Source of the DNA: Candidatus Zixiibacteriota bacterium
Lineage (GTDB): Bacteria > SM23-81
Assembly (NCBI GenBank): GCA_030628225.1
Contig: DAOVRJ010000060.1
Span: 1 to 11,057 of the forward strand
Direction of reading: 5' to 3'
Length of the DNA stretch: 11,057 nucleotides
A program made the position numbers and the translations under genes. Every line of letters begins with the position of its first letter. Position 1 is the first letter of the stretch. Of this stretch, positions 727 through 11,057 are shown in pieces. The notes under the pieces are model-generated. The model worked only from the letters and a program-made list of their open reading frames with translations, had not been told where the DNA came from and ran no database searches.

Positions 727-1344
727 TTACTTGCCTGTTCCCTTGATCACAATCTTCGCCGTATCCAACAATATCTTCATGTCCAGCCAGAAGCTGCGCT
801 TTTGAATATATTCCAGATCAAGTTTCACCCACTTGTCGAAATCGAAAATCTCATTTCGGCCCTGCGTCTGCCACAAACAAGTAATACCCGGCTTAACAGC
901 CAATTTCTGCTTCTGCCAATCATTAAACCGTTCGTACTCAGTTTGCAACGGAGGCCGCGGTCCCACCAGGGACATATCACCCTTTATTACACTCCATAGT
1001 TGGGGAAGCTCGTCCAGACTGAATTTGCGCAAGAATTTTCCGACCGGAGTAATCCTCGGATCGTCGCTCAGCTTGAACATCGGGCCTGTCATCTCATTCC
1101 GTAAAAGAAGCTTCTCTTTGAGATGCTCCGTATTCTGAAACATCGAGCGAAATTTGTACCCGGTAAAATAGCGACCTTCCTCGCCGACTACCGGCCATCT
1201 GTAAAAAACAGGACCTTTCGATGTTGCCTTGACAGCAATGGCAATGGCAATAAGAACGGGAGAGAGCGTCAATCCGAGAAGAGATGCGGTTACGAGATCA
1301 AAAAATCGTTTGGTTTTATCGTAAATGCTCTTCATTTTCTTCAT
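727..1344 (-). CDS. Undecaprenyl-phosphate sugar-1-phosphate transferase (bacterial sugar transferase family)
   Basis: The 205-residue product is a complete small-form polyprenyl-phosphate sugar-1-phosphate transferase (Bac_transf family, the catalytic core shared by WcaJ and PglC). It would move a sugar-1-phosphate from a nucleotide sugar to undecaprenyl phosphate at the inner membrane, the first step of repeat-unit assembly. Seen: KRFFD (12-16); one hydrophobic stretch at about 17-39 broken by Ser28-Pro29, as in the re-entrant helix of this family; the catalytic Asp-Glu dyad D111-E112 in SLDELPQ; SLVGPRPP (125-132); and KPGITCLWQTQGR (151-163). There is no long N-terminal multi-helix domain, so it resembles the short rather than the five-helix WbaP form. 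A second ATG at 1335 (residue 4) is an equally possible start, because neither has a clear Shine-Dalgarno. Whether it is expressed with the large operon upstream or separately is unclear. Confidence 0.93.
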   Translation of the reverse strand: MKKMKSIYDKTKRFFDLVTASLLGLTLSPVLIAIAIAVKATSKGPVFYRWPVVGEEGRYFTGYKFRSMFQNTEHLKEKLLLRNEMTGPMFKLSDDPRITPVGKFLRKFSLDELPQLWSVIKGDMSLVGPRPPLQTEYERFNDWQKQKLAVKPGITCLWQTQGRNEIFDFDKWVKLDLEYIQKRSFWLDMKILLDTAKIVIKGTGK

Positions 1345-1642: not shown

Positions 1643-2731
1643 CTACCTGGAGAATGATCGGTACAGCTTTTCCAGTCCCTCTGTCACCGCATCCCAGTTA
1701 TAGCACTGAACGATGCGGTTTCGGGCTTTGATCTGATATTCCTTCACTTTTTGGGGATGATCGACTAAGTCCTGGAGCTGTTTCCGCAAATCTTCTACAT
1801 CATTTTTCCGGAAGCAGACGCCAGCATCCCCTATTGTCTCACAATTCTCTGGCAGCGCGTTCACCACTACACAGTTTCCGTAACCCATGGCCGATAACAA
1901 AGCCGGGGAGGTCCCCTCTATCTCAGAGGCGGTTACATATAAATAGGCGTTACAACATAGCTGCTTATAATCCTCACCATAAACAAATCCCAAAAATTTC
2001 ACGTTGGGATTTGTGGTGCTCTTCAACGAACGGATGTAATCCCGGCTGAAGACATCGTCCCCCACGATAGCCAATTTCTTATCGGTGTTCAAACCATCAA
2101 AGGCTTGGATGAGCCTGTGAACACCTTTCTCCGGCTTCAGCCTGCCCACGAACAGCAGATAGCCATTCTTTTCCAGATTGAATTTCTTAAGCGCATCCAT
2201 TCTCTCTGTTCGCTGAATCTCCGCTCCATAGGGCAAGTATTCAGTTCGCGCACGGAATTCCTCCCAGTAATAACGCCCGATAACTCTGCTGTCGACGACG
2301 ATGCGGTCGGCGAACCTAGTGGCTACCCGTTCGGCCAACCGGAGATACCAGCTAGCGAACTTGCTCCACTTGGCGCGTTTCCAATCCAGAGCATCCACGG
2401 AGATGACAACTTTTTTAGAGACACAACGCAAGAACGGAATCATCGCGGAACTTCCTACGCCGTAAATATGGATGATATCTACATGCTTCGAGGCCAGTGA
2501 AATTGTGGATAAAAGCGAGGAAATCAATGTGGCCAGATGCTTGCTTTCCAGCGTGGGAACCCTGATCATCTTGACACCCCGATATGATTTGCTGGTGTTG
2601 TCACTGGATCGATGGTAAACAATTACCTGATGGCCCCGTTCTGCCAGCCTTGTGCTCACTTCCTGTACGCAGGTCTCAAAACCACCGTGTCTCGCCGGGA
2701 TTCCCTTGGTACCTATAATTGCAATCTTCAT
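1643..2731 (-). CDS. Glycosyltransferase family 4 (GT-B fold)
   Basis: The complete 362-residue protein is a GT4-type retaining glycosyltransferase that would add a sugar from an NDP-sugar to the lipid-linked repeat unit on the cytoplasmic face of the inner membrane. Seen: the N-terminal acceptor domain opens with IIGTKGIPARHGGFET (5-20), a start typical of DUF1972-containing rhamnosyltransferase-like GT4 enzymes. The C-terminal donor domain has FVGRLKPEKGVHRLIQAF (194-211), GDD (224-226), and the loop EIEGTSPALLSAMG (270-283). In that loop the first Glu of the EX7E signature (E272) is present, but the second position is Ser280. The gene begins 3 nt after the stop of the MshEN-SIS gene, with purine-rich sequence (GAAGGGGAAG) overlapping that gene's end, so the two are probably translated together. 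Donor and acceptor cannot be read from sequence. Confidence 0.92.
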   Translation of the reverse strand: MKIAIIGTKGIPARHGGFETCVQEVSTRLAERGHQVIVYHRSSDNTSKSYRGVKMIRVPTLESKHLATLISSLLSTISLASKHVDIIHIYGVGSSAMIPFLRCVSKKVVISVDALDWKRAKWSKFASWYLRLAERVATRFADRIVVDSRVIGRYYWEEFRARTEYLPYGAEIQRTERMDALKKFNLEKNGYLLFVGRLKPEKGVHRLIQAFDGLNTDKKLAIVGDDVFSRDYIRSLKSTTNPNVKFLGFVYGEDYKQLCCNAYLYVTASEIEGTSPALLSAMGYGNCVVVNALPENCETIGDAGVCFRKNDVEDLRKQLQDLVDHPQKVKEYQIKARNRIVQCYNWDAVTEGLEKLYRSFSR

Positions 2732-2734
2732 CTT

Positions 2735-4357
2735 TTAAGCTTCCCCTTCTCCTGGCCCCGATGAGACACCTCTATCAGAGGAGTTCGGCTTCAGAGCTTC
2801 GATACGCCGTCTCAAATATGTAGAGATCAAGTGTGCTAAAATCAGGTGTAAATCTTCCACCCGCTGCATATTGTCGCTGGGCACGATAAGATACTCCTGG
2901 GCCAGATCTTTCAGCTTTCCGCCGGAAAATCCGATGAACCCGATGGTCTTTCCGCCAACGGAATTGGCGTAGGCGATGCCGTTGAGCACGTTCTGAGAGT
3001 TGCCGCTTCCACTGATACCGATAACCACATCCCCTGAATTCATCAAATTCCTCAGTTGCTCGGCAAACCCAAAGAAGTAATGTGTGTCGTTGGACCAGGC
3101 GGTGAACAGGGGAAGATTCTCCGTCAGGGACATGGCCCGAAGTCGGTGGCCACAGCCGGCCACGTATGTCTTGGACAGATCACAGGCGAAATGAGAGGCA
3201 TTGGAGGCGCTGCCGCCGTTGCCCATGATGAAGATATGACGGTCCTCCCGGTAGGCATCTAACAAGATAGAGCCCATTCGCTCGATCTTCTCTTTGGGGA
3301 TAGCATCCATGACAGATTTCAACTTCTTAAAATATTCCTCGGCGAACTCCTCAGCGCTGGGCACCTCTCCAGCCGATTGCTGCTGCCGTTCCAGGGCCAT
3401 TTTCAGCTGATGGGAGGTGATAAATCCACCCTCCAGCAGATATTCCCCGATTCGCTTGGTGGGGGTGAAGATCTTGGGAAACTCCCGTCTGGTATGGCCG
3501 TAAATCTCGTTCAAGGCCGCCTCGATGGCACCTGTGGAGCTTATCACCGGTCGGATCAAGTATCCCGTTTTGCCGGCGATCACCTCCCGGGCCAGCTCGT
3601 CCTGTGGATCGGCCATGGCCGTGACCAAAACGTTGAGCTGCTTGGCGATGGGAATGAGACAATAATGACGGGCCAGCTCTTCGGGGATGGTCTTCACTAC
3701 CTCTGGGTGCAAACCGTAATTGGCCAGGTGCACATAGGGTATACCCAACTGCATGCCCAAAGCCTGCATCCAGTTCTCTTCGGAAATCACCCCCAGCTCA
3801 ACCAGAGTGTCGCCCAGGCGACTGCCATTGGCTCGCTGATGCTCCAGAGCAACCTGCAGTTGTTCCTGGTTAATGAATCCCCCCTCCAATAAAAACTCAC
3901 CGATCTTCTTGTGAAAGCCGTCGGCCGATTTTTCCTCATCGGGCCGGCCTGGTCCATATACGTGATCCAGACACTTGTGAATTTCCCCCTCCGTGGAGAT
4001 GACCACCTTTACTTTCAAGCCCGTAATCAACTCTACCTCCCGACAGGCCCGGTCATTCAAGGGATCAGCCATGACCAACACTAATTTGTCCGAGCCCTCT
4101 TTTCTCAGGGGGATCAGATCGAACCGACGGGCAACTTTCTGCGGGATTAGCCGGACCACCTCTTTCGAGACCATTGAGGGTGAAATCCGGACATAGGGCA
4201 GGGAAAGCTGAGCACTCAGAGCTTTAAGGAGATCTTCTTCCTGAATATAACCGAGCTTCACGGCTGCTTTGCCCAACCGTTGGCCCGTTTTCCGGTGTTC
4301 TGCCAAAACCCTGGCTAATTGCTCCTCGGTGATATTTCCCTTTTTTCTGGAGACCAT
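2735..4357 (-). CDS. MshEN-repeat / phosphoheptose-isomerase-like SIS domain fusion protein
   Basis: One uninterrupted 540-codon frame joins two unrelated modules. Residues 1-325 hold GspE N-terminal/MshEN repeats. Copy 1 (1-136) lacks the front of its first motif but has RLGKAAVKLG (27-36). Copy 2 (about 150-288) is complete: KIGEFLLEGG (151-160), the 5-residue spacer RANGS (175-179), RLGDTLVELG (180-189), then the second subdomain with IPYVHL and VTAMADPQDE (245-254). Copy 3 keeps only motif I, RIGEYLLEGG (302-311), ending at Q325. Residues 334-522 are a SIS domain close to GmhA: GNGGSASNASHF (379-390), GISGSGNS (447-454), VEDLHLILAH (500-509). GmhA converts sedoheptulose-7-P to D-glycero-D-manno-heptose-7-P. 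MshEN modules are known c-di-GMP receptors, so second-messenger control of the isomerase is inferred. Start 4357 was chosen because it lies 8 nt after the GHMP kinase stop behind GAGAGA; the 85 codons upstream in frame overlap that kinase gene and show no family match. The end lies 3 nt before the GT4 start. Confidence 0.88.
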   Translation of the reverse strand: MVSRKKGNITEEQLARVLAEHRKTGQRLGKAAVKLGYIQEEDLLKALSAQLSLPYVRISPSMVSKEVVRLIPQKVARRFDLIPLRKEGSDKLVLVMADPLNDRACREVELITGLKVKVVISTEGEIHKCLDHVYGPGRPDEEKSADGFHKKIGEFLLEGGFINQEQLQVALEHQRANGSRLGDTLVELGVISEENWMQALGMQLGIPYVHLANYGLHPEVVKTIPEELARHYCLIPIAKQLNVLVTAMADPQDELAREVIAGKTGYLIRPVISSTGAIEAALNEIYGHTRREFPKIFTPTKRIGEYLLEGGFITSHQLKMALERQQQSAGEVPSAEEFAEEYFKKLKSVMDAIPKEKIERMGSILLDAYREDRHIFIMGNGGSASNASHFACDLSKTYVAGCGHRLRAMSLTENLPLFTAWSNDTHYFFGFAEQLRNLMNSGDVVIGISGSGNSQNVLNGIAYANSVGGKTIGFIGFSGGKLKDLAQEYLIVPSDNMQRVEDLHLILAHLISTYLRRRIEALKPNSSDRGVSSGPGEGEA

Positions 4358-4365
4358 AGATTCTC

Positions 4366-5343
4366 TCAGCGATGAATGTTGAAGATGATCCTGCTGCCCT
4401 GATTCTCGAAACGGAAGGGCAATTCTGTCAGATGAGACAACGCCTGGCGCACATTCTCCTGTTTCTCTCCCAGGCAATAGAGCAACAGGAATCCACCCCC
4501 ACCGGCTCCGGTGATCTTCCCCCCCAGGGCACCTGCCGCCAAAGCTCTCTCGTAGAGATCGTTGATCTGCCCATCGGTAATCCCACTGGCCAACTGCTTT
4601 TTGTGCTCCCAATTCCGGTTAAGGATGCGGCCGGCCTCGTCCAAATCGCCATTGCTGAGGCTGGCCTGGAAACTGTCCGGCAAAAGGCTCATCTGGTGAA
4701 GAATCTCCCGGTGCTGGGGAAGACGTTCCCGCTGCTCTGTCAGGATAGAGGATGCGCTTCGGGTCTTGCCCGTGTAAAAGAGCATTAGCCGCTCGTTGAA
4801 CCTGCGACGCAGGCTGTAATCGAGCTTGACCAACTCTACATCCACTTTTTCGTCAGGGAAAAAAGTGATCTTTCGAATATTGCCGTAAGCGACGATGTAC
4901 TGATCTTGTTTGCCAATAGGGGCTCCCAGGATCTCAATTTCGATCTCACAAGCCTCCTGGGCCAGGGTCTCGGCATCTTTGAACTCACCGGTGTATGCAT
5001 AGAGGGCATTGAGCAACCCAACGGTGAAACTGCTGGAAGAGCCTAATCCCGTTCCTCGGGAAGGAATATCCGCCAGGGTGGTAATTTCCACACCTCTGTC
5101 CACACCAGTTTTTTTCATGGCTTCCCGCACCAAATCATGCTGGATTTCATCCACCCTGTCCACGATCTCTTTCTGGGAGTAATTCAACACAATTTTATCG
5201 TCGAAACGTTCTTTGACTATGGCAAATACATACTTGTCGATAGCCGTGCTGAGCACACACCCCGGCTCGTGGCTGTAAAAACCTCGCAAATCAGTTCCAC
5301 CACCCACGAAACTCACCCTCAAAGGCGTCTGGGTGATAATCAT
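4366..5343 (-). CDS. GHMP-family sugar kinase, likely D-glycero-D-manno-heptose-7-phosphate kinase (HddA-like)
   Basis: The 325-residue cytoplasmic protein is a full-length GHMP kinase. Seen: TPLRVSFVGGGTD (6-18), the first family motif in the form used by HddA-type heptose kinases; the phosphate-binding loop PSRGTGLGSSSSFTV (94-108); and the third motif KITGAGGGGF (276-285). HddA phosphorylates C1 of D-glycero-D-manno-heptose-7-phosphate on the way to GDP-heptose. The neighbours support this: a nucleotidyltransferase directly before it and a GmhA-like isomerase domain directly after it. L-fucose kinase or other GHMP sugar kinases are less likely alternatives. ATG 5343 was chosen over the codon 8 residues upstream because it starts at the conserved MIITQTPLR, forms an ATGA overlap with the preceding gene's stop, and has GGGAGG (5349-5354) 5 nt upstream. 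Confidence 0.88.
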   Translation of the reverse strand: MIITQTPLRVSFVGGGTDLRGFYSHEPGCVLSTAIDKYVFAIVKERFDDKIVLNYSQKEIVDRVDEIQHDLVREAMKKTGVDRGVEITTLADIPSRGTGLGSSSSFTVGLLNALYAYTGEFKDAETLAQEACEIEIEILGAPIGKQDQYIVAYGNIRKITFFPDEKVDVELVKLDYSLRRRFNERLMLFYTGKTRSASSILTEQRERLPQHREILHQMSLLPDSFQASLSNGDLDEAGRILNRNWEHKKQLASGITDGQINDLYERALAAGALGGKITGAGGGGFLLLYCLGEKQENVRQALSHLTELPFRFENQGSRIIFNIHR

Positions 5344-6089
5344 GGCCGCCTCCCTTCCCAACCACACTGCACTTCATCCTCAGCGGTGGACTCTATAATT
5401 CCCCGCCACCCCCTCAGGGCATTTAGATAGCTTTGCATGGTTCCGATGTCTTGCAAATATTCTTGAATTACATACCCGTACATCCGGCCCACGACCTTGG
5501 GCAACACATGGTGGCCAAGATCAACCTCCGCTCCCCGGGGAATGTATGATAACAGATCCGGGGAAGCTACCAGAACGCCGGCATTGGCCAGATCGCTTTG
5601 CGGATGCACAGGCTTCTCCACAAAAGAAGTGATCAATCCCCTGCAGTCCAACTCCACAACACCGCATTGCTCCGGAACAGACGTGTGAAACAAACCCATG
5701 GTCACAAGACCGTCGTGCGCTCTGTGAAATCTCAGCAGGGATTTGAAGTTTACGTTGGTCAGGTTGTCGGCATAGAGGATAAAAAAATCCCTTTCCTTGC
5801 GGACGAAACCGGAGTTGGCCGCGATCGTCCCGGCGCTGCCCAGCAGACGATCCTCCGGAAATATCTTGAACTTCACGCTATGATTTTCCAGCTTTTGGAG
5901 ATACGCTTCCACCACTTCCGGGTGGTGATGTAGATTAATGAGCAGCTCCTTGATACCATATCTCTTGCAGAGAGAGAACCAGTAGTGAAGAAGTGGCTTC
6001 CCGGCGATGGGAACCATACACTTTGGAAGATCATTGGTGAGCGGCCTCAATCTCTTGCCCACTCCAGCAGCCAGAAGAAATGCCTTCAT
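5340..6089 (-). CDS. Sugar-1-phosphate nucleotidyltransferase (HddC / GDP-mannose pyrophosphorylase-like)
   Basis: The complete 249-residue protein has the nucleotidyltransferase (Rossmann-like, GT-A) fold that joins a sugar-1-phosphate to an NTP. Seen: LAAGVGKRLRPLT (6-18), where Lys12 replaces the Thr common at this place; PKCMVPIAGKP (22-32); LGSAGTI (83-89); the metal-site Asp108 in YADN; FVEKP (156-160); and NAGVLV (169-174). There is no left-handed beta-helix or cupin extension, so it is the short form. Next to a heptose-type GHMP kinase and a GmhA-like domain, the best assignment is D-glycero-alpha-D-manno-heptose-1-phosphate guanylyltransferase (HddC). A glucose-, mannose- or other hexose-1-phosphate enzyme cannot be excluded. 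It starts 19 nt after the CpsD-like stop, with GGAGGA (6099-6104) 9 nt before the ATG, and its TGA overlaps the kinase ATG. Confidence 0.9.
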   Translation of the reverse strand: MKAFLLAAGVGKRLRPLTNDLPKCMVPIAGKPLLHYWFSLCKRYGIKELLINLHHHPEVVEAYLQKLENHSVKFKIFPEDRLLGSAGTIAANSGFVRKERDFFILYADNLTNVNFKSLLRFHRAHDGLVTMGLFHTSVPEQCGVVELDCRGLITSFVEKPVHPQSDLANAGVLVASPDLLSYIPRGAEVDLGHHVLPKVVGRMYGYVIQEYLQDIGTMQSYLNALRGWRGIIESTAEDEVQCGWEGRRP

Positions 6090-6108: not shown

Positions 6109-6867
6109 TCATAACCGTTTGTAGACCCGTTTTGGAATCACATACTGCCGCCTGTTCAGGACCACGCCCAAAAAGTTAGCCTGGGCATTGTTCAGGGTAT
6201 CCTGGGCCTTTCGAATCACCTCCCAACGGGTCTTCCCTGCCTGAACCACCAGGACGACACCATCTATCAGACGACTGAGAATCGCGGCGTCGGCATAGGC
6301 AAGCACGGGGGAGGAATCAAACAAGATATAGGAATAACTTCGTTCCCATTCGGTCAGGGCCTCTTTGAGACGGGAGGAGCCCAACAGATGCGGGGGGTCC
6401 TCGGTTGGTTGTCCCGATGTGATCACAAAAAGGCCTGGGAAATTAGTTTCCTTAACCACCTCCTTCCCCGAGACCTTCCCCTCCAACAGCTCAACAATCC
6501 CATTCTTCCGTTCCAAACTAAAGAGATCGTGGAGCACCGGGCTTCGCAAATTTGCATCCACCAGCAACACTTTCTCCTGCCCGCTCTGGACAAGAGAACG
6601 GGCAAATTGAGAACAGACAGAGGAAGTCCCCTCACTATGAACAGAGCTAAGGATGAGGACAGATCTAACCTCGTGGTTGGAGTTCGCTGCTTTTATTATG
6701 TCGTGCATCTTTCGGTATTCCTCAGCGGCAGCCGAGGATAACGAGGAGTCACCCTCCCTCGGGCGTGATGGAGTTTCCTCGGCAGACGGCTGTGGCACCT
6801 CTTTTTTCAGAGCAGTGCCTTCTTTTTCCCGCTCAGCTTTTTTCAAGGCCTCGTAAATTTTACTCAT
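6109..6867 (-). CDS. CpsD/CapB-family BY-kinase-like protein with degenerate P-loop
   Basis: The 252-residue protein has the architecture of a stand-alone bacterial tyrosine kinase partner of a Wzz-type co-polymerase (CpsD/CapB, TyrKin of XrtA loci). Seen: a charged N-terminal start MSKIYEALKKAEREKEG shared with XrtA-type members; a variable linker (18-48); the Walker A region SSVHSEGTSSV (74-84); Walker A' VLLVDANLRSP (100-110, Asp104); Walker B ILFDSSPV (181-188, Asp184); and DGVVLVVQAGKT (202-213). In Walker A the invariant Lys is Thr81 and a Gly is Ser78, so normal ATP binding is doubtful. The C-terminus has only two tyrosines near its end (Tyr242, Tyr249) rather than a dense Tyr cluster. 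It may be a pseudokinase that regulates polymerisation through Wzz. ATG 6867 was chosen because it gives the family start, overlaps the ATPase stop as ATGAGTAA, and has AAGGAG 7 nt upstream; the 56-codon upstream extension is coding sequence of the ATPase gene in another frame. Confidence 0.9.
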   Translation of the reverse strand: MSKIYEALKKAEREKEGTALKKEVPQPSAEETPSRPREGDSSLSSAAAEEYRKMHDIIKAANSNHEVRSVLILSSVHSEGTSSVCSQFARSLVQSGQEKVLLVDANLRSPVLHDLFSLERKNGIVELLEGKVSGKEVVKETNFPGLFVITSGQPTEDPPHLLGSSRLKEALTEWERSYSYILFDSSPVLAYADAAILSRLIDGVVLVVQAGKTRWEVIRKAQDTLNNAQANFLGVVLNRRQYVIPKRVYKRL

Positions 6868-8326
6868 CCCCCGACTCCTTAAGAGGAGGAAAATTAGGAA
6901 ACTGGTATGCCTCTCCAGCAAGCTCGCCACGTTCATCTTCCTCGATCTCACTGACGGTCCGAAGATAGGCATAACGAAATGTACCAGACTCCAGATACCG
7001 TTTTGCAGTCCGTAGGGCAAGATCTCTATTTTCATAGTCGCCCACCAGCACTCGGTACCAGTGGCCCAAATCGGGCAGTTGAACGGATGCGATGAAGATC
7101 GGCTCGAATCCTTTCCGCCTCAGGTTGTCCACCAGCTGTTCCGCCCTAGCCGGCTCCCGAAACGATGCTACGTGCACCGAGAAAAAAGTATGCCCATCAT
7201 CCTCAATCACATCTCCATCTAACTTCTCTGGGGACGATTTGAAAATCCCCGTAACAGGGCTTGTTTCTTCCCCAGCCTGGACATGGGCGTGACGTAACTC
7301 CGGCATTGCCAGCACTCCCCAGTTCGCAGAGCCGGAAGCAAAGTTGCCCTCAGGCCCACTCACTAACGGGGGCATGCTGAAAAGCACTACCCCCAGCAAA
7401 AAACAAGACGTCACGGCCAGAGGTCGTAAAACACGGCGCCACCATGGAAAACGCTTTTCTCGTTTTGCCCCAACACCTCCCGCTGGAGAATCAGGCTCTG
7501 AGAAATCAGAGGAAACAACTCCCAGGGCCTTCAGGTCGGTGATAGTTTCATCGATGATCAGAGCGCCAATTTCTCTTTTCCCATAGGTATAGCCCAAAAG
7601 CATGGCACTATCGCAAATCACGTTGATCAGGCGAGGAATTCCTGTGGACCAACGATACACTTTCTCCACGGCTATTGTGTCGAAGATAGAGCCCTGGGAA
7701 AGACCCGCCACCCTCAGTCTGTGCTGAACATACCGGGCGGTCTCCTGGCTGTTGAGAGGTCTAATTTGATATCGGGAGCTGATTCTCTGCCGCAGCTGTC
7801 GAAGCTGGGGCAGAGCCAGTTTTGTAGCCAACTCCGGCTGGCCAACCAAGATAATCTGGAGCAATTTTTCCCGGCCTGTTTCCAGGTTGGAGAGCATACG
7901 GATTTCCTCCAACAGGCCAAAGCTCAGATGCTGAGCCTCGTCCACAATAAGAACGGAGTTTGCCCCGGCGGCGAACTGCTGGAGGAGAAAATGGTGAAGG
8001 TCAAGCAAAAGCTCGGTCTTTGTCCTGGCCTTGCTTTTGATGCCAAAATCAGAGACCATCATCCTCAACAGGCCCTTTGCCGTAAGAGAAGTGCTGAAGA
8101 TAAAGGCTGTCTTGGTATTTGAATTCAACCTGTTCAGCAAAGCGTGAACCAATGTGGTTTTGCCGGTGCCCACCTCCCCGACGATGGCCACGAACCCCTT
8201 GCGTTCCTGAACCCCATATTGCAGATGAGCCAAAGCTTCCCGGTGGTGTTGGCTCATATAGAGAAATCTCGGATCCGGGGTCACGTTAAAGGGTTTCTCG
8301 ATCAGGCCATAGAATTTTTCATACAT
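6860..8326 (-). CDS. ExeA-type AAA+ ATPase with transmembrane segment and C-terminal SPOR domain
   Basis: The 488-residue protein starts MYEKFYGLIEKPF, as in XrtA-associated and ExeA/MshM-type ATPases. Seen: Walker A GEVGTGKTT (50-58); Walker B VLIVDEAQ (125-132); GQPEL (162-166); an arginine-finger-like RQRISSRY (179-186); WSTGIPRLINVICD (226-239); a basic stretch then one hydrophobic segment (about 303-318); a low-complexity linker; and a SPOR-like domain (about 378-456) with FFSVHVASFREPARAEQL and WYRVLVGDY. SPOR domains bind denuded peptidoglycan, so the protein probably has its ATPase in the cytoplasm and its SPOR domain in the periplasm. The order resembles DamX. A likely role is energising or positioning the polysaccharide export machine at the cell wall. 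ATG 8326 has GAGG 8 nt upstream and lies 17 nt after the Wzz stop; the 15 residues upstream would overlap Wzz and do not match the family. Confidence 0.9.
   Translation of the reverse strand: MYEKFYGLIEKPFNVTPDPRFLYMSQHHREALAHLQYGVQERKGFVAIVGEVGTGKTTLVHALLNRLNSNTKTAFIFSTSLTAKGLLRMMVSDFGIKSKARTKTELLLDLHHFLLQQFAAGANSVLIVDEAQHLSFGLLEEIRMLSNLETGREKLLQIILVGQPELATKLALPQLRQLRQRISSRYQIRPLNSQETARYVQHRLRVAGLSQGSIFDTIAVEKVYRWSTGIPRLINVICDSAMLLGYTYGKREIGALIIDETITDLKALGVVSSDFSEPDSPAGGVGAKREKRFPWWRRVLRPLAVTSCFLLGVVLFSMPPLVSGPEGNFASGSANWGVLAMPELRHAHVQAGEETSPVTGIFKSSPEKLDGDVIEDDGHTFFSVHVASFREPARAEQLVDNLRRKGFEPIFIASVQLPDLGHWYRVLVGDYENRDLALRTAKRYLESGTFRYAYLRTVSEIEEDERGELAGEAYQFPNFPPLKESGDE
6875..6880 (-). promoter_or_regulatory. 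Ribosome binding site deciding the CpsD-like start
   Basis: The minus strand reads AAGGAG here, 7 nt before ATG 6867. It lies inside the 3' end of the ATPase gene and supports the short start (MSKIYEAL) over a start 168 nt upstream. Confidence 0.75.
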
Positions 8327-8334
8327 CTTAGCAG

Positions 8335-8338
8335 CCTC
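8335..8338 (-). promoter_or_regulatory. Ribosome binding site deciding the ATPase start
   Basis: GAGG on the minus strand, 8 nt before ATG 8326, lies in the 17-nt gap after the Wzz stop. It supports the MYEKFYGL start over the ATG at 8371, which lies inside the Wzz gene. Confidence 0.6.
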
Positions 8339-8343
8339 GAAAC

Positions 8344-9792
8344 TTAAAACCGTTTCATCTCGGGGATACAAGCCAAAACGGGAAGATTGAGATAGTGTTC
8401 CACATCCTCGCTGGTCTTCAGGGAGTGGTCCAAGTACTCAGTCACAAAAGCCAGCCCGAACCCGCCGATGAATCCGATGAGACACCCCACGAAGAGCAAC
8501 AGTCCCTTTTGGGGTCGAACGGGCTTGAGGGGCAGAGTAGCCGGGCTGATCACAGAGACATTGGCAATCCGTCGGTCACTGGCCTCGGAAACCTTGGCCT
8601 CCTCTCTCTTCAACACCAGCATGGTATAGACCCCTTTATGATTCTCGATGGCTCTTTGCAGCCGATCGATGGTCAGCTCCTTCTCCGGAAAAGTCTTCAC
8701 CTCCGTATACAACATGCTGACGGTAGAACGCAACACACCCTCCTCAGCCTGCAAAACCGCCAGGGAGGATTCCTCCAGATCAATCACTTTCTCCACCTCT
8801 GCCTTCAGCTCGGCCTCGCCCATGGCGATTTCTTTTCTGAGGTTTAAAATCTCCCGATGCTCCTCGGTATATTTTGTGAGCAACTCGTTGAGCCGCATAC
8901 GAAGGTCTATGAGTCTATCATGAAGAGAAGATATGATCCTTTCCTCTCTAATCTCCACGGAAGGAACCAGGGGTTGACGTGGAGATGCCATGATGTCACG
9001 TATTATTACCAACTTAGCCTCTGTGCTGATGATATCTTTGCGGACTTTTGTCAAGGATGTCTCGAACTCGTTGAGCTTCTGCAGAAGTATCATCTCCTGT
9101 GTTTCATAGGACAACAAAGCTTCTTGCTCCCGGTAATCCTTCAGTGCCGACTCCAGTTGGTCCAAGTTACGCCTGGCAATCTCGATCTGCTCATCAAAGA
9201 AATCAACGGCCCCGCTGGCCCGGTAGATTTTGGCTCGATATTCGATGTACATCTCGGCCACGGCGTTGGCAACATCCATTGCTCTCTTGGGATCGGGGGA
9301 GCTATACCGGATCTGGATGATATCGGACTTCTTCACGGGCTCGGCGACGATGTCCTTTTGGAGCGCCAAGATTCTGCTTTCACGGCTTTGCTCCGAATCT
9401 TTGCCTTCTCCCTCAGTAGCAGTAACATCTTCCGTTGAAGTGGCCTGTGGAGAAGAAATATCCTGGGCCGCAACCTCCAAATCCAGCTTTTCTATGGCCG
9501 CTTCAACAACCGTCCGACTTTTGATCAGCTCAATTTCGGAGTTGATCTCCTCCTCCAGCTCAAATCTCCTCATCAACGGATACCAGGGTGCTACCCTGAG
9601 CACCGCCTCGCTCACCTCCCTGTTGAGCATAACCTTGGTGGAGCTTTCGTAGATGGGCGTGCTAAGGAACACCCCAATAGTGACCGTGGCCACTGTGATG
9701 AGAAAGATGGCGATGATCATCTTCTGTCGTTTGAAGATGACAAACAGCACATCTCTCATGGAAACGATCCTACCTGGGGACTGATCAGTCAT
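8344..9792 (-). CDS. Wzz/GumC-family polysaccharide co-polymerase (chain-length determinant)
   Basis: The 482-residue inner-membrane protein has the two-transmembrane layout of polysaccharide co-polymerases. Seen: a short cytoplasmic N-terminus; TM1 at about 25-44; the Wzz N-terminal beta segment PIYESSTKVML (46-56); an acidic Ser/Thr-rich insert (about 110-138); a long periplasmic coiled-coil region (about 200-350); the proline-rich PLKPVRPQ (421-428) just before TM2 (about 430-451); and a short cytoplasmic tail DHSLKTSEDVEHYLNLPVLACIP (455-477) of the type that meets a CpsD kinase. No kinase domain is fused, consistent with the separate CpsD-like gene two genes on. It would set chain length and connect polymerisation to the Wza channel. 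The start has AGGAGAG (9800-9806) 7 nt upstream and lies 23 nt after the Wza stop. Confidence 0.95.
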   Translation of the reverse strand: MTDQSPGRIVSMRDVLFVIFKRQKMIIAIFLITVATVTIGVFLSTPIYESSTKVMLNREVSEAVLRVAPWYPLMRRFELEEEINSEIELIKSRTVVEAAIEKLDLEVAAQDISSPQATSTEDVTATEGEGKDSEQSRESRILALQKDIVAEPVKKSDIIQIRYSSPDPKRAMDVANAVAEMYIEYRAKIYRASGAVDFFDEQIEIARRNLDQLESALKDYREQEALLSYETQEMILLQKLNEFETSLTKVRKDIISTEAKLVIIRDIMASPRQPLVPSVEIREERIISSLHDRLIDLRMRLNELLTKYTEEHREILNLRKEIAMGEAELKAEVEKVIDLEESSLAVLQAEEGVLRSTVSMLYTEVKTFPEKELTIDRLQRAIENHKGVYTMLVLKREEAKVSEASDRRIANVSVISPATLPLKPVRPQKGLLLFVGCLIGFIGGFGLAFVTEYLDHSLKTSEDVEHYLNLPVLACIPEMKRF

Positions 9793-9815: not shown

Positions 9816-10628
9816 TCAATGCCGCCACGCACGATCCGGATGCGCAACATCCCATCCTTTTAGATAAAAGTCCATGGGCAGCATCATCTTGGTAAATAAT
9901 TGATCCATAAATTCATTAAGCTGAGCGATAAAAGTGGCCGGTACGTAAACGATCTCGTTGCCCTGCAAGAAAGGATCATTCTCCCTCCCCCTACCACCCA
10001 CGGCCCGGGTCAGATTCAGTCTGCTGGCCACTGGTACTCCATAGATATCCTTGTTGATAATGATAACGCTGCTGAGTTTGGCGGTTGGCTTAAACCCCTG
10101 CGCCATGGCGATAGCGCCCAGAACAGTCGTTCCATTGGGATTCAGCGGATACCCCCCGGGCTTGTTCACCTCCCCCAAAATGTAGACTACCTGTTCCCCA
10201 ATTTCGCGGACGATAACCGTGACATCGGGCTCTCTGATGATCTCGGAGTACTTTTCGGTAATTAGCTCATCCAACTGGGCGGGGGTCATGCCTACCACCA
10301 GAACATCGCCCAGACGGGGAAGGGTAACCCGGCCATCGGGTCTGATGGTCAAGGTTTCGTCGAAAGTCGGATTGTAGAAAAACTTCGCCTCGATGATATC
10401 CCCGTATCCAAACCGGTATTCCGGCATAGAATCTGGCTCCCCGGCAAATCCGGTGGTTAATGCTCCTGCGGGGGATACTGTCTCCGGGACAGGAGCACGC
10501 CCACGCAACCGCACACAGGATAGGCAACCAAGGGACAGGGCCAACAGCCAGATGATGGTGAATCTTGCCACTCTGCCGATCACGCGCCGTTCCCTCCTTA
10601 TAAAATCCGTGAGTTGGTTTTCACGCAT
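9816..10628 (-). CDS. Wza-family polysaccharide export protein (Poly_export + SLBB)
   Basis: The 270-residue protein matches the outer-membrane polysaccharide export family. Seen: a hydrophobic signal-like segment (about 21-38) with Cys35 and Cys38; the Poly_export domain starting YRFGYGDIIEAKFF (71-84) with IRPDGRVTLPRLGDV (95-109); an SLBB domain VVYILGEVNKPGGYPL (147-162) through TTVLGAIAMAQGF (167-179); a NEIVYVP ending (224-230); and an amphipathic C-terminal stretch (231-257) that could be the membrane-crossing helix of the octameric channel. It is shorter than E. coli Wza. Neither Cys has a canonical lipobox (LSLGC, CLSC), so lipidation is uncertain. ATG 10628 overlaps the upstream epimerase stop (ATGCGTGA); its own ribosome site is weak, suggesting translational coupling. 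The longer frame from 10700 would overlap the epimerase and precede the signal with unrelated residues. Confidence 0.92.
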   Translation of the reverse strand: MRENQLTDFIRRERRVIGRVARFTIIWLLALSLGCLSCVRLRGRAPVPETVSPAGALTTGFAGEPDSMPEYRFGYGDIIEAKFFYNPTFDETLTIRPDGRVTLPRLGDVLVVGMTPAQLDELITEKYSEIIREPDVTVIVREIGEQVVYILGEVNKPGGYPLNPNGTTVLGAIAMAQGFKPTAKLSSVIIINKDIYGVPVASRLNLTRAVGGRGRENDPFLQGNEIVYVPATFIAQLNEFMDQLFTKMMLPMDFYLKGWDVAHPDRAWRH

Positions 10629-11057
10629 TCTGCCGTCTTTGAAACCACTGAACGAACAGCGGAATGCCCTTCTCAATGGGCACCTTGGGACTGAACCCAA
10701 GCAGCCGGTGAGCCTTCTCGATGCGGGCGCAGGTTCTCTTCACATCCCCTGGCTGCTCGGCAAGATTTTTAATATGCGCCTGACGAGAGAGACTTTCCTC
10801 GATAAGGGTAATCATCCGGTGCAGGAACACAGGCTGAGAGCCACCTAAGTTGATGATCTCAAAACCAAAATCAGACTCCAGAGCAGCTACCAGACCATCG
10901 ATAATGTCGTCGATATAAGTGTAATCGCGCTCGGAGCTGCCGTCTCCAAAAACAGGCAGTTCCTCTTCTTTCCAGATCAAGCGGGTAAACTTGTGGATGG
11001 CCATCTCCGGCCTTTGGCGAGGACCATAGACCGTGAACAGCCGCAAACATGCCACCG
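10621..11057 (-). CDS. NDP-sugar epimerase, C-terminal part (partial, N-terminus beyond right edge)
   Basis: The last 145 codons of an extended-SDR NDP-sugar epimerase are present; the frame is open through the right edge, so the true start and the Rossmann and YxxxK motifs lie outside. Seen: RLFTVYGPRQRPEMAI, FGDGSSERDYTYIDDI and INLGGSQPV, typical of the C-terminal substrate-binding half of UDP-glucuronate or UDP-galactose 4-epimerase-like enzymes in polysaccharide loci. The segment PGDVKRTCARIEKAHRLLGFSP, split here only by naming its key residues (Asp-Val before the Lys/Ala-rich helix, then LLGFSPKV), is the usual end of this family. A UDP-glucuronate 4-epimerase is the best guess from RQRP. 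Its TGA overlaps the Wza ATG by 8 nt, so it is the first visible gene of the operon. Confidence 0.9.
   Translation of the reverse strand, partial: VACLRLFTVYGPRQRPEMAIHKFTRLIWKEEELPVFGDGSSERDYTYIDDIIDGLVAALESDFGFEIINLGGSQPVFLHRMITLIEESLSRQAHIKNLAEQPGDVKRTCARIEKAHRLLGFSPKVPIEKGIPLFVQWFQRRQNA

Follow-up and report, generated by a model that had tools for sequence, protein, structure and literature searches.

A tandem MshEN module fused to a phosphoheptose-isomerase-like SIS domain is encoded as one 540-aa protein in a polysaccharide operon of a Candidatus Zixiibacteriota bacterium (assembly GCA_030628225.1, contig DAOVRJ010000060.1; the window referred to below is the whole stretch of 11,057 nucleotides that was analysed). 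The domain combination is new, and the protein is plausibly a c-di-GMP-responsive enzyme, here described as putative. The gene occupies 2735..4357 of the minus strand, from an ATG at 4357 to a TAA ending at 2735, and translation of this open reading frame meets no internal stop (0 between 4357 and 2735). The original prediction of a single frame without a stop at the join, and of MshEN repeats and a SIS domain in the same protein, is borne out by this translation and by the domain matches that follow.

The MshEN repeats account for residues 1-325 and the GmhA-like SIS domain for approximately residues 333-522. PF05157 (MshEN) matches the protein in two stretches (Pfam; 1.8e-38, 130.8 bits against a curated cutoff of 23.1), the c-di-GMP_motif model NF053729 matches it in three (NCBIfam; 1.3e-38, 130.6 bits against a cutoff of 38), and SIS_2 matches residues 341-475 above its gathering score (Pfam; 2.4e-16). 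Copy 1 of MshEN (residues 1-138; 3944..4357, minus), as delimited by Pfam, the motif scan and the structural model, has a degenerate motif I and an intact motif II. Copy 2 (residues 145-289; 3491..3925, minus), delimited by Pfam, the model and structural matches, is the candidate c-di-GMP site. Copy 3 consists of a lone motif I, without a motif II, which continues directly into the N-terminal helix of the SIS domain (2792..3361, minus), itself placed by Pfam, the model, structural matches and alignment.

The published relaxed 24-residue motif, of which two copies separated by a 5-residue spacer make a tandem pair, was scanned for in the form given in passages of PMC5013675. It is matched four times, by motif II of copy 1 (RLGKAAVKLGYIQEEDLLKALSAQ, residues 27-50; 4208..4279, minus), motif I of copy 2 (KIGEFLLEGGFINQEQLQVALEHQ, residues 151-174; 3836..3907, minus), motif II of copy 2 (RLGDTLVELGVISEENWMQALGMQ, residues 180-203; 3749..3820, minus) and motif I of copy 3 (RIGEYLLEGGFITSHQLKMALERQ, residues 302-325; 3383..3454, minus), with one tandem pair at residues 151-203; in 20,000 shuffles of the protein, single motifs averaged 0.0014 and no tandem pair arose. 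The tandem layout that had been claimed for copy 2, including its spacer, is exactly the one recovered, and because the two motifs are set at the required distance copy 2 is complete. Among the positions described as key to binding in passages of PMC12002112 and PMC5013675 are G at position 3, the Q that closes each motif and the R that opens motif II; copy 2 has kept Gly, Arg and Gln where they are required, with K first in motif I. Because K at this position is found in high-affinity c-di-GMP sites (PMC11731258), it would be compatible with tight binding. Judged by these residues, copy 2 appears to meet the published binding requirements, with nearly all of the needed residues present, and is likely to be a c-di-GMP site. 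The strict consensus RLGxx...LxxxLxxQ is not satisfied in both motifs (K151, I152, W196), and the main doubt over binding probably lies in Trp196, which falls at position 17 of motif II, a contact position normally occupied by Leu. A restored consensus does not itself guarantee binding, since such MshEN domains can still fail (PMC12002112). In copy 1 the first RLG is missing and the first Q is replaced by H, the same Gln-to-His change as H33 of the non-binding PilF GSPII-A (PMC12002112); for both reasons copy 1 is predicted not to bind, and it probably does not bind c-di-GMP on its own.

In minus-strand order, the operon comprises a Wza-type polysaccharide export protein (9816..10700), a Wzz/GNVR chain-length determinant (8344..9792), an ExeA-like AAA ATPase with a fused SPOR domain (6860-8371), which at 317 bits falls just short of the 324.5-bit cutoff of the XrtA/PEP-CTERM-associated ATPase model, a polysaccharide tyrosine autokinase of the EPS family (6109..7035; NCBIfam), whose true start is probably internal, an HddC-like sugar-1-phosphate nucleotidyltransferase (5340..6089), an HddA-like kinase (4366..5367), the fusion, a GT4-type glycosyltransferase directly downstream of it (1643..2731), an initiating polyprenyl sugar-phosphate transferase (727..1344) and a truncated epimerase. 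The export protein, the chain-length determinant and both transferases were assigned by Pfam and NCBIfam. The stop of the HddA-like gene lies 8 bases before the start of the fusion gene. HddA is the best NCBIfam model for the former (1.2e-43) at 149.9 of 600 bits, under the cutoff, as is the HddA homologue of one locus containing a relative (L009), and the HddC model is likewise under its cutoff at 78.9 of 300 bits (4.2e-22). The shared polysaccharide operon proposed earlier is thus what was found, with the HddA- and HddC-like genes, Wza-type and Wzz proteins and glycosyltransferases beside the fusion. An Rfam scan of the window returned no element, hence no known c-di-GMP riboswitch above threshold. 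The contig ends fall inside two epimerase/dehydratase genes on the minus strand (2-643 and 10621-11055), the first of which bears a zinc-ribbon-like CxxC insert; a circular contig was considered and rejected, as the window ends show no terminal overlap.

An AlphaFold model of the fusion, built on an alignment of 17 sequences, has a mean pLDDT of 85.6 and a pTM of 0.45. Each part is confidently predicted to fold; the arrangement of MshEN arms on the SIS core is not predicted, because the pTM is only 0.45. Modelled copy 2 has the MshEN fold, aligning with MshE bound to c-di-GMP (5htl) at Z 18.4 and 2.5 A rmsd over 138 residues, and Foldseek gave a like result. The best match of the modelled SIS domain is the phosphoheptose isomerase 1tk9 (Z 26.5, 2.1 A, 184 residues; Foldseek likewise); with DiaA only slightly behind (Z 25.9), the fold alone is no proof of isomerase activity.

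Isomerases with this SIS fold assemble as tetramers in which the active sites are paired. If the fusion protein is likewise a tetramer, ligand binding would be expected to alter arm packing and, with it, activity or coupling to HddA, because the module runs through copy 3 into the first SIS helix. In the mechanism proposed here, the tandem MshEN module is set before the phosphoheptose-isomerase-like SIS domain of a GDP-heptose-type branch (SIS, HddA, HddC); when c-di-GMP is high, copy 2 would bind one molecule of it, binding would shift the packing of the MshEN arms on the SIS core, and the shifted packing would change either isomerase activity or coupling to HddA, with a sign that is not predictable. 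That the fusion is real and that one c-di-GMP bound by copy 2 acts in this way within a GDP-heptose-type exopolysaccharide branch is held tentatively, at somewhat less than an even chance. A stronger version, in which c-di-GMP exerts direct allosteric control, through the tandem MshEN, on an enzyme at a committed step in the supply of sugar-nucleotide precursors for exopolysaccharide, and in which the two unpaired motifs, I of copy 3 and II of copy 1, could in addition form a second site between tetramer subunits, is doubtful. The sensor-enzyme of the original prediction is retained in part, favoured by the MshEN identity, the fit of copy 2 to the binding requirements, the polysaccharide operon and the diguanylate cyclase domains of the genome, which has 7 GGDEF matches.

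The main rival to a c-di-GMP-responsive enzyme is a docking or scaffold role, in which MshEN, by binding c-di-GMP or another component (a PilZ protein or the export machine, for instance), would recruit the isomerase to the polysaccharide apparatus and leave its catalysis unchanged. The position of the gene inside a polysaccharide operon would suit such a role, two of the three MshEN copies are partial, as expected of interaction surfaces, and among the structural matches to the MshEN part is a structure (7lkm) of the PilB N-terminal domain, which has the same fold, bound to a PilZ protein. However, copy 2 retains ligand-contacting residues that a pure scaffold does not need, and this explanation is considered unlikely.

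Because the SIS domain scores 104.3 bits with the GmhA equivalog TIGR00441 (NCBIfam), under the cutoff of 209.45, it is not filed as GmhA proper. The zinc ligands of GmhA are H64, E68, Q175 and H183 (PMC5705639), and the corresponding residues of the fusion are H389, D393, E501 and H509, so that two of the four differ (E68 to D, Q175 to E). Across 127 relatives in the fetched loci (L009-L131), H, D, E, H occupy these positions in 116-117 and H, E, Q, H in 10-11, by which the fused domain falls in a subfamily sister to GmhA, defined in sequence by the paired exchange of two metal ligands. It retains all residues strongly conserved among these relatives, with only two mild changes, and it shows the features of the SIS subfamily found beside HddA, HddC and GmhB, namely the SIS_2 match, the D/E ligand pair and the heptose-gene neighbourhood. 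The earlier description of the domain as GmhA-like thus stands for the SIS_2 match and the fold; a canonical GmhA it is not. Among 110 loci, an HddA homologue lies directly upstream of the subfamily SIS in 33, an HddC homologue upstream in 26 and a GmhB homologue directly downstream in 19, and SIS-GmhB fusions occur in two genomes (L037, 1183-2670; L040, minus strand, approximately 886-2055). Because of these neighbours and fusions, a role as heptose 7-phosphate isomerase is likely, and the fused SIS domain likely converts sedoheptulose 7-phosphate to heptose 7-phosphate, an activity that we infer, since the domain's subfamily is sister to GmhA and has the two ligands swapped.

Alternatively, the SIS domain may act on another phosphosugar, such that the sensor step is not heptose synthesis, which would be compatible with c-di-GMP sensing. 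The metal-ligand positions unlike those of GmhA, the HddA and HddC matches under curated cutoffs and a canonical GmhA already present on another contig of the genome favour this possibility. It is nevertheless quite unlikely, because HddA-, HddC- and GmhB-like genes are neighbours of the subfamily, of which two genomes have members fused to a GmhB-like heptose bisphosphate phosphatase. In addition to the canonical GmhA gene, the genome has a GmhB-like gene, next to one that resembles a heptosyltransferase, and a gene that scores over the cutoff for rfaE_dom_II (jointly, L168 on contig C141, 2763-4379; L005 on C26; L177 on C109); because of these genes, a second, separate heptose route of the LPS type is probable. 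Their products could add to the pool of the intermediate that the fused SIS domain is expected to make, or deplete it. As the canonical GmhA would make the same heptose 7-phosphate, precursor control at the fusion step would be leaky, except in a channelled pathway or with a different substrate; a role of the fusion as a simple gate on precursors is weakened by this shared intermediate and is uncertain.

The original prediction knew of no described example, and neither the domain search nor the literature search yielded one. The search for fusions covered first 60 and later 386 relatives, as well as several entire phyla, approximately 470 genomes in all, and found no second MshEN-SIS fusion among them, SIS and MshEN always matching separately. 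Nor was there a fusion among the matches listed for 80 named-genome loci, for which frames were read in most and tblastn with the MshEN part was run in all. Among the plasmid matches listed, MshEN ATPases and SIS proteins occur only separately and none covers 80% of the query; no relative was found in viral contigs, and the nearest relative genome examined, of the same family, gave no match of the fusion's SIS type. Long frames in L009, L031, L032, L037, L040 and L041 were rejected as MshEN-SIS candidates, being frame artefacts or other fusions on reading. In Ktedonosporobacter rubrisoli, a weak MshEN-like match (24%; L090, 6036-6404, minus) lies near a SIS gene on the opposite strand. The partners of MshEN named in the main text of PMC5013675 are ATPase, glycosyltransferase, REC, HD-GYP, CheA, CheX, cyclase and kinase, with no SIS in that text. 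The literature search found no publication that pairs a SIS domain, or phosphoheptose isomerase, with MshEN, and the titles and abstracts of work on c-di-GMP, gmhA and heptose describe no direct control of the enzyme.

This singleton distribution (for the named genomes, among the matches listed) would also be expected if the MshEN repeats were decayed or purely structural, without ligand, and the SIS domain constitutive, as would the missing motif I of copy 1 and motif II of copy 3 and the Trp196 of copy 2. Such decay should erode the Gly and Gln positions, whereas the complete tandem motif of copy 2 is far beyond chance, the frame has no internal stops and the fold is confident; this explanation is rather improbable. 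It is highly improbable that the fusion is an artefact, in which two genes were joined through misassembly or a sequencing error removed a stop or frameshift: although the assembly is fragmented into 306 contigs, the fusion is known from one metagenome-type contig and a second example was not found (for named genomes and plasmids, among the matches listed), the MshEN block separates HddA from SIS, two genes that in 33 other loci adjoin each other across small gaps with no MshEN between them, so that a misassembly would have had to make two joins, both in frame; G+C along the gene is even (0.53, 0.56, 0.58, 0.52); the genome holds no donor copy, as its only other MshEN genes are those of two pilus/secretion ATPases, approximately 35% identical; and the frame has no ATG between residues 321 and 349 for a separate SIS start. 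Simple misassembly is thus unlikely by these features of the locus.

Taken as a c-di-GMP-responsive enzyme, the fusion can be compared with several known systems. In its SIS part it resembles GmhA (1tk9, 2x3y and others), with which it shares the SIS fold, conserved loop residues and two identical zinc ligands of four; it differs in the two exchanged ligands, in an Asn at the D61 position and in its score under the equivalog cutoff, and solved GmhA chains, of approximately 190-220 aa, are without an added regulatory domain. In its MshEN part it resembles GSPII-A/B/C of Thermus PilF and the PilB/MshE ATPases, which likewise have tandem repeats of the same fold, of which some are functional and the first copy is degenerate, although their output is a traffic ATPase, absent from the fusion. 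The N-terminus of the model for EpsG-type EPS tyrosine kinases (TIGR03029) matches the MshEN region of the fusion (6.6e-20), and MshEN-like halves are therefore already annotated in polysaccharide operons, but there the output is a kinase and not a sugar enzyme.

The literature reports consulted place c-di-GMP control of polysaccharides at the polymerising enzyme or at transcription. Were c-di-GMP also to act on a soluble isomerase where heptose supply begins, its reach would extend into central carbohydrate metabolism, and the outputs of MshEN would come to include an enzyme of small-molecule sugar metabolism; such control would be directly testable in vitro, given a simple two-domain protein. 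A further likeness is to Escherichia coli NfrB, in which MshEN is also attached to a polysaccharide enzyme and whose model matches the MshEN part of the fusion (1.7e-40). The MshEN domain of NfrB is reported to bind c-di-GMP, and allosteric activation of the glycosyltransferase has been proposed (PMC8669469). In NfrB, however, the enzyme is the glycosyltransferase itself and MshEN is C-terminal, whereas in the fusion a soluble precursor isomerase is preceded by an N-terminal MshEN.
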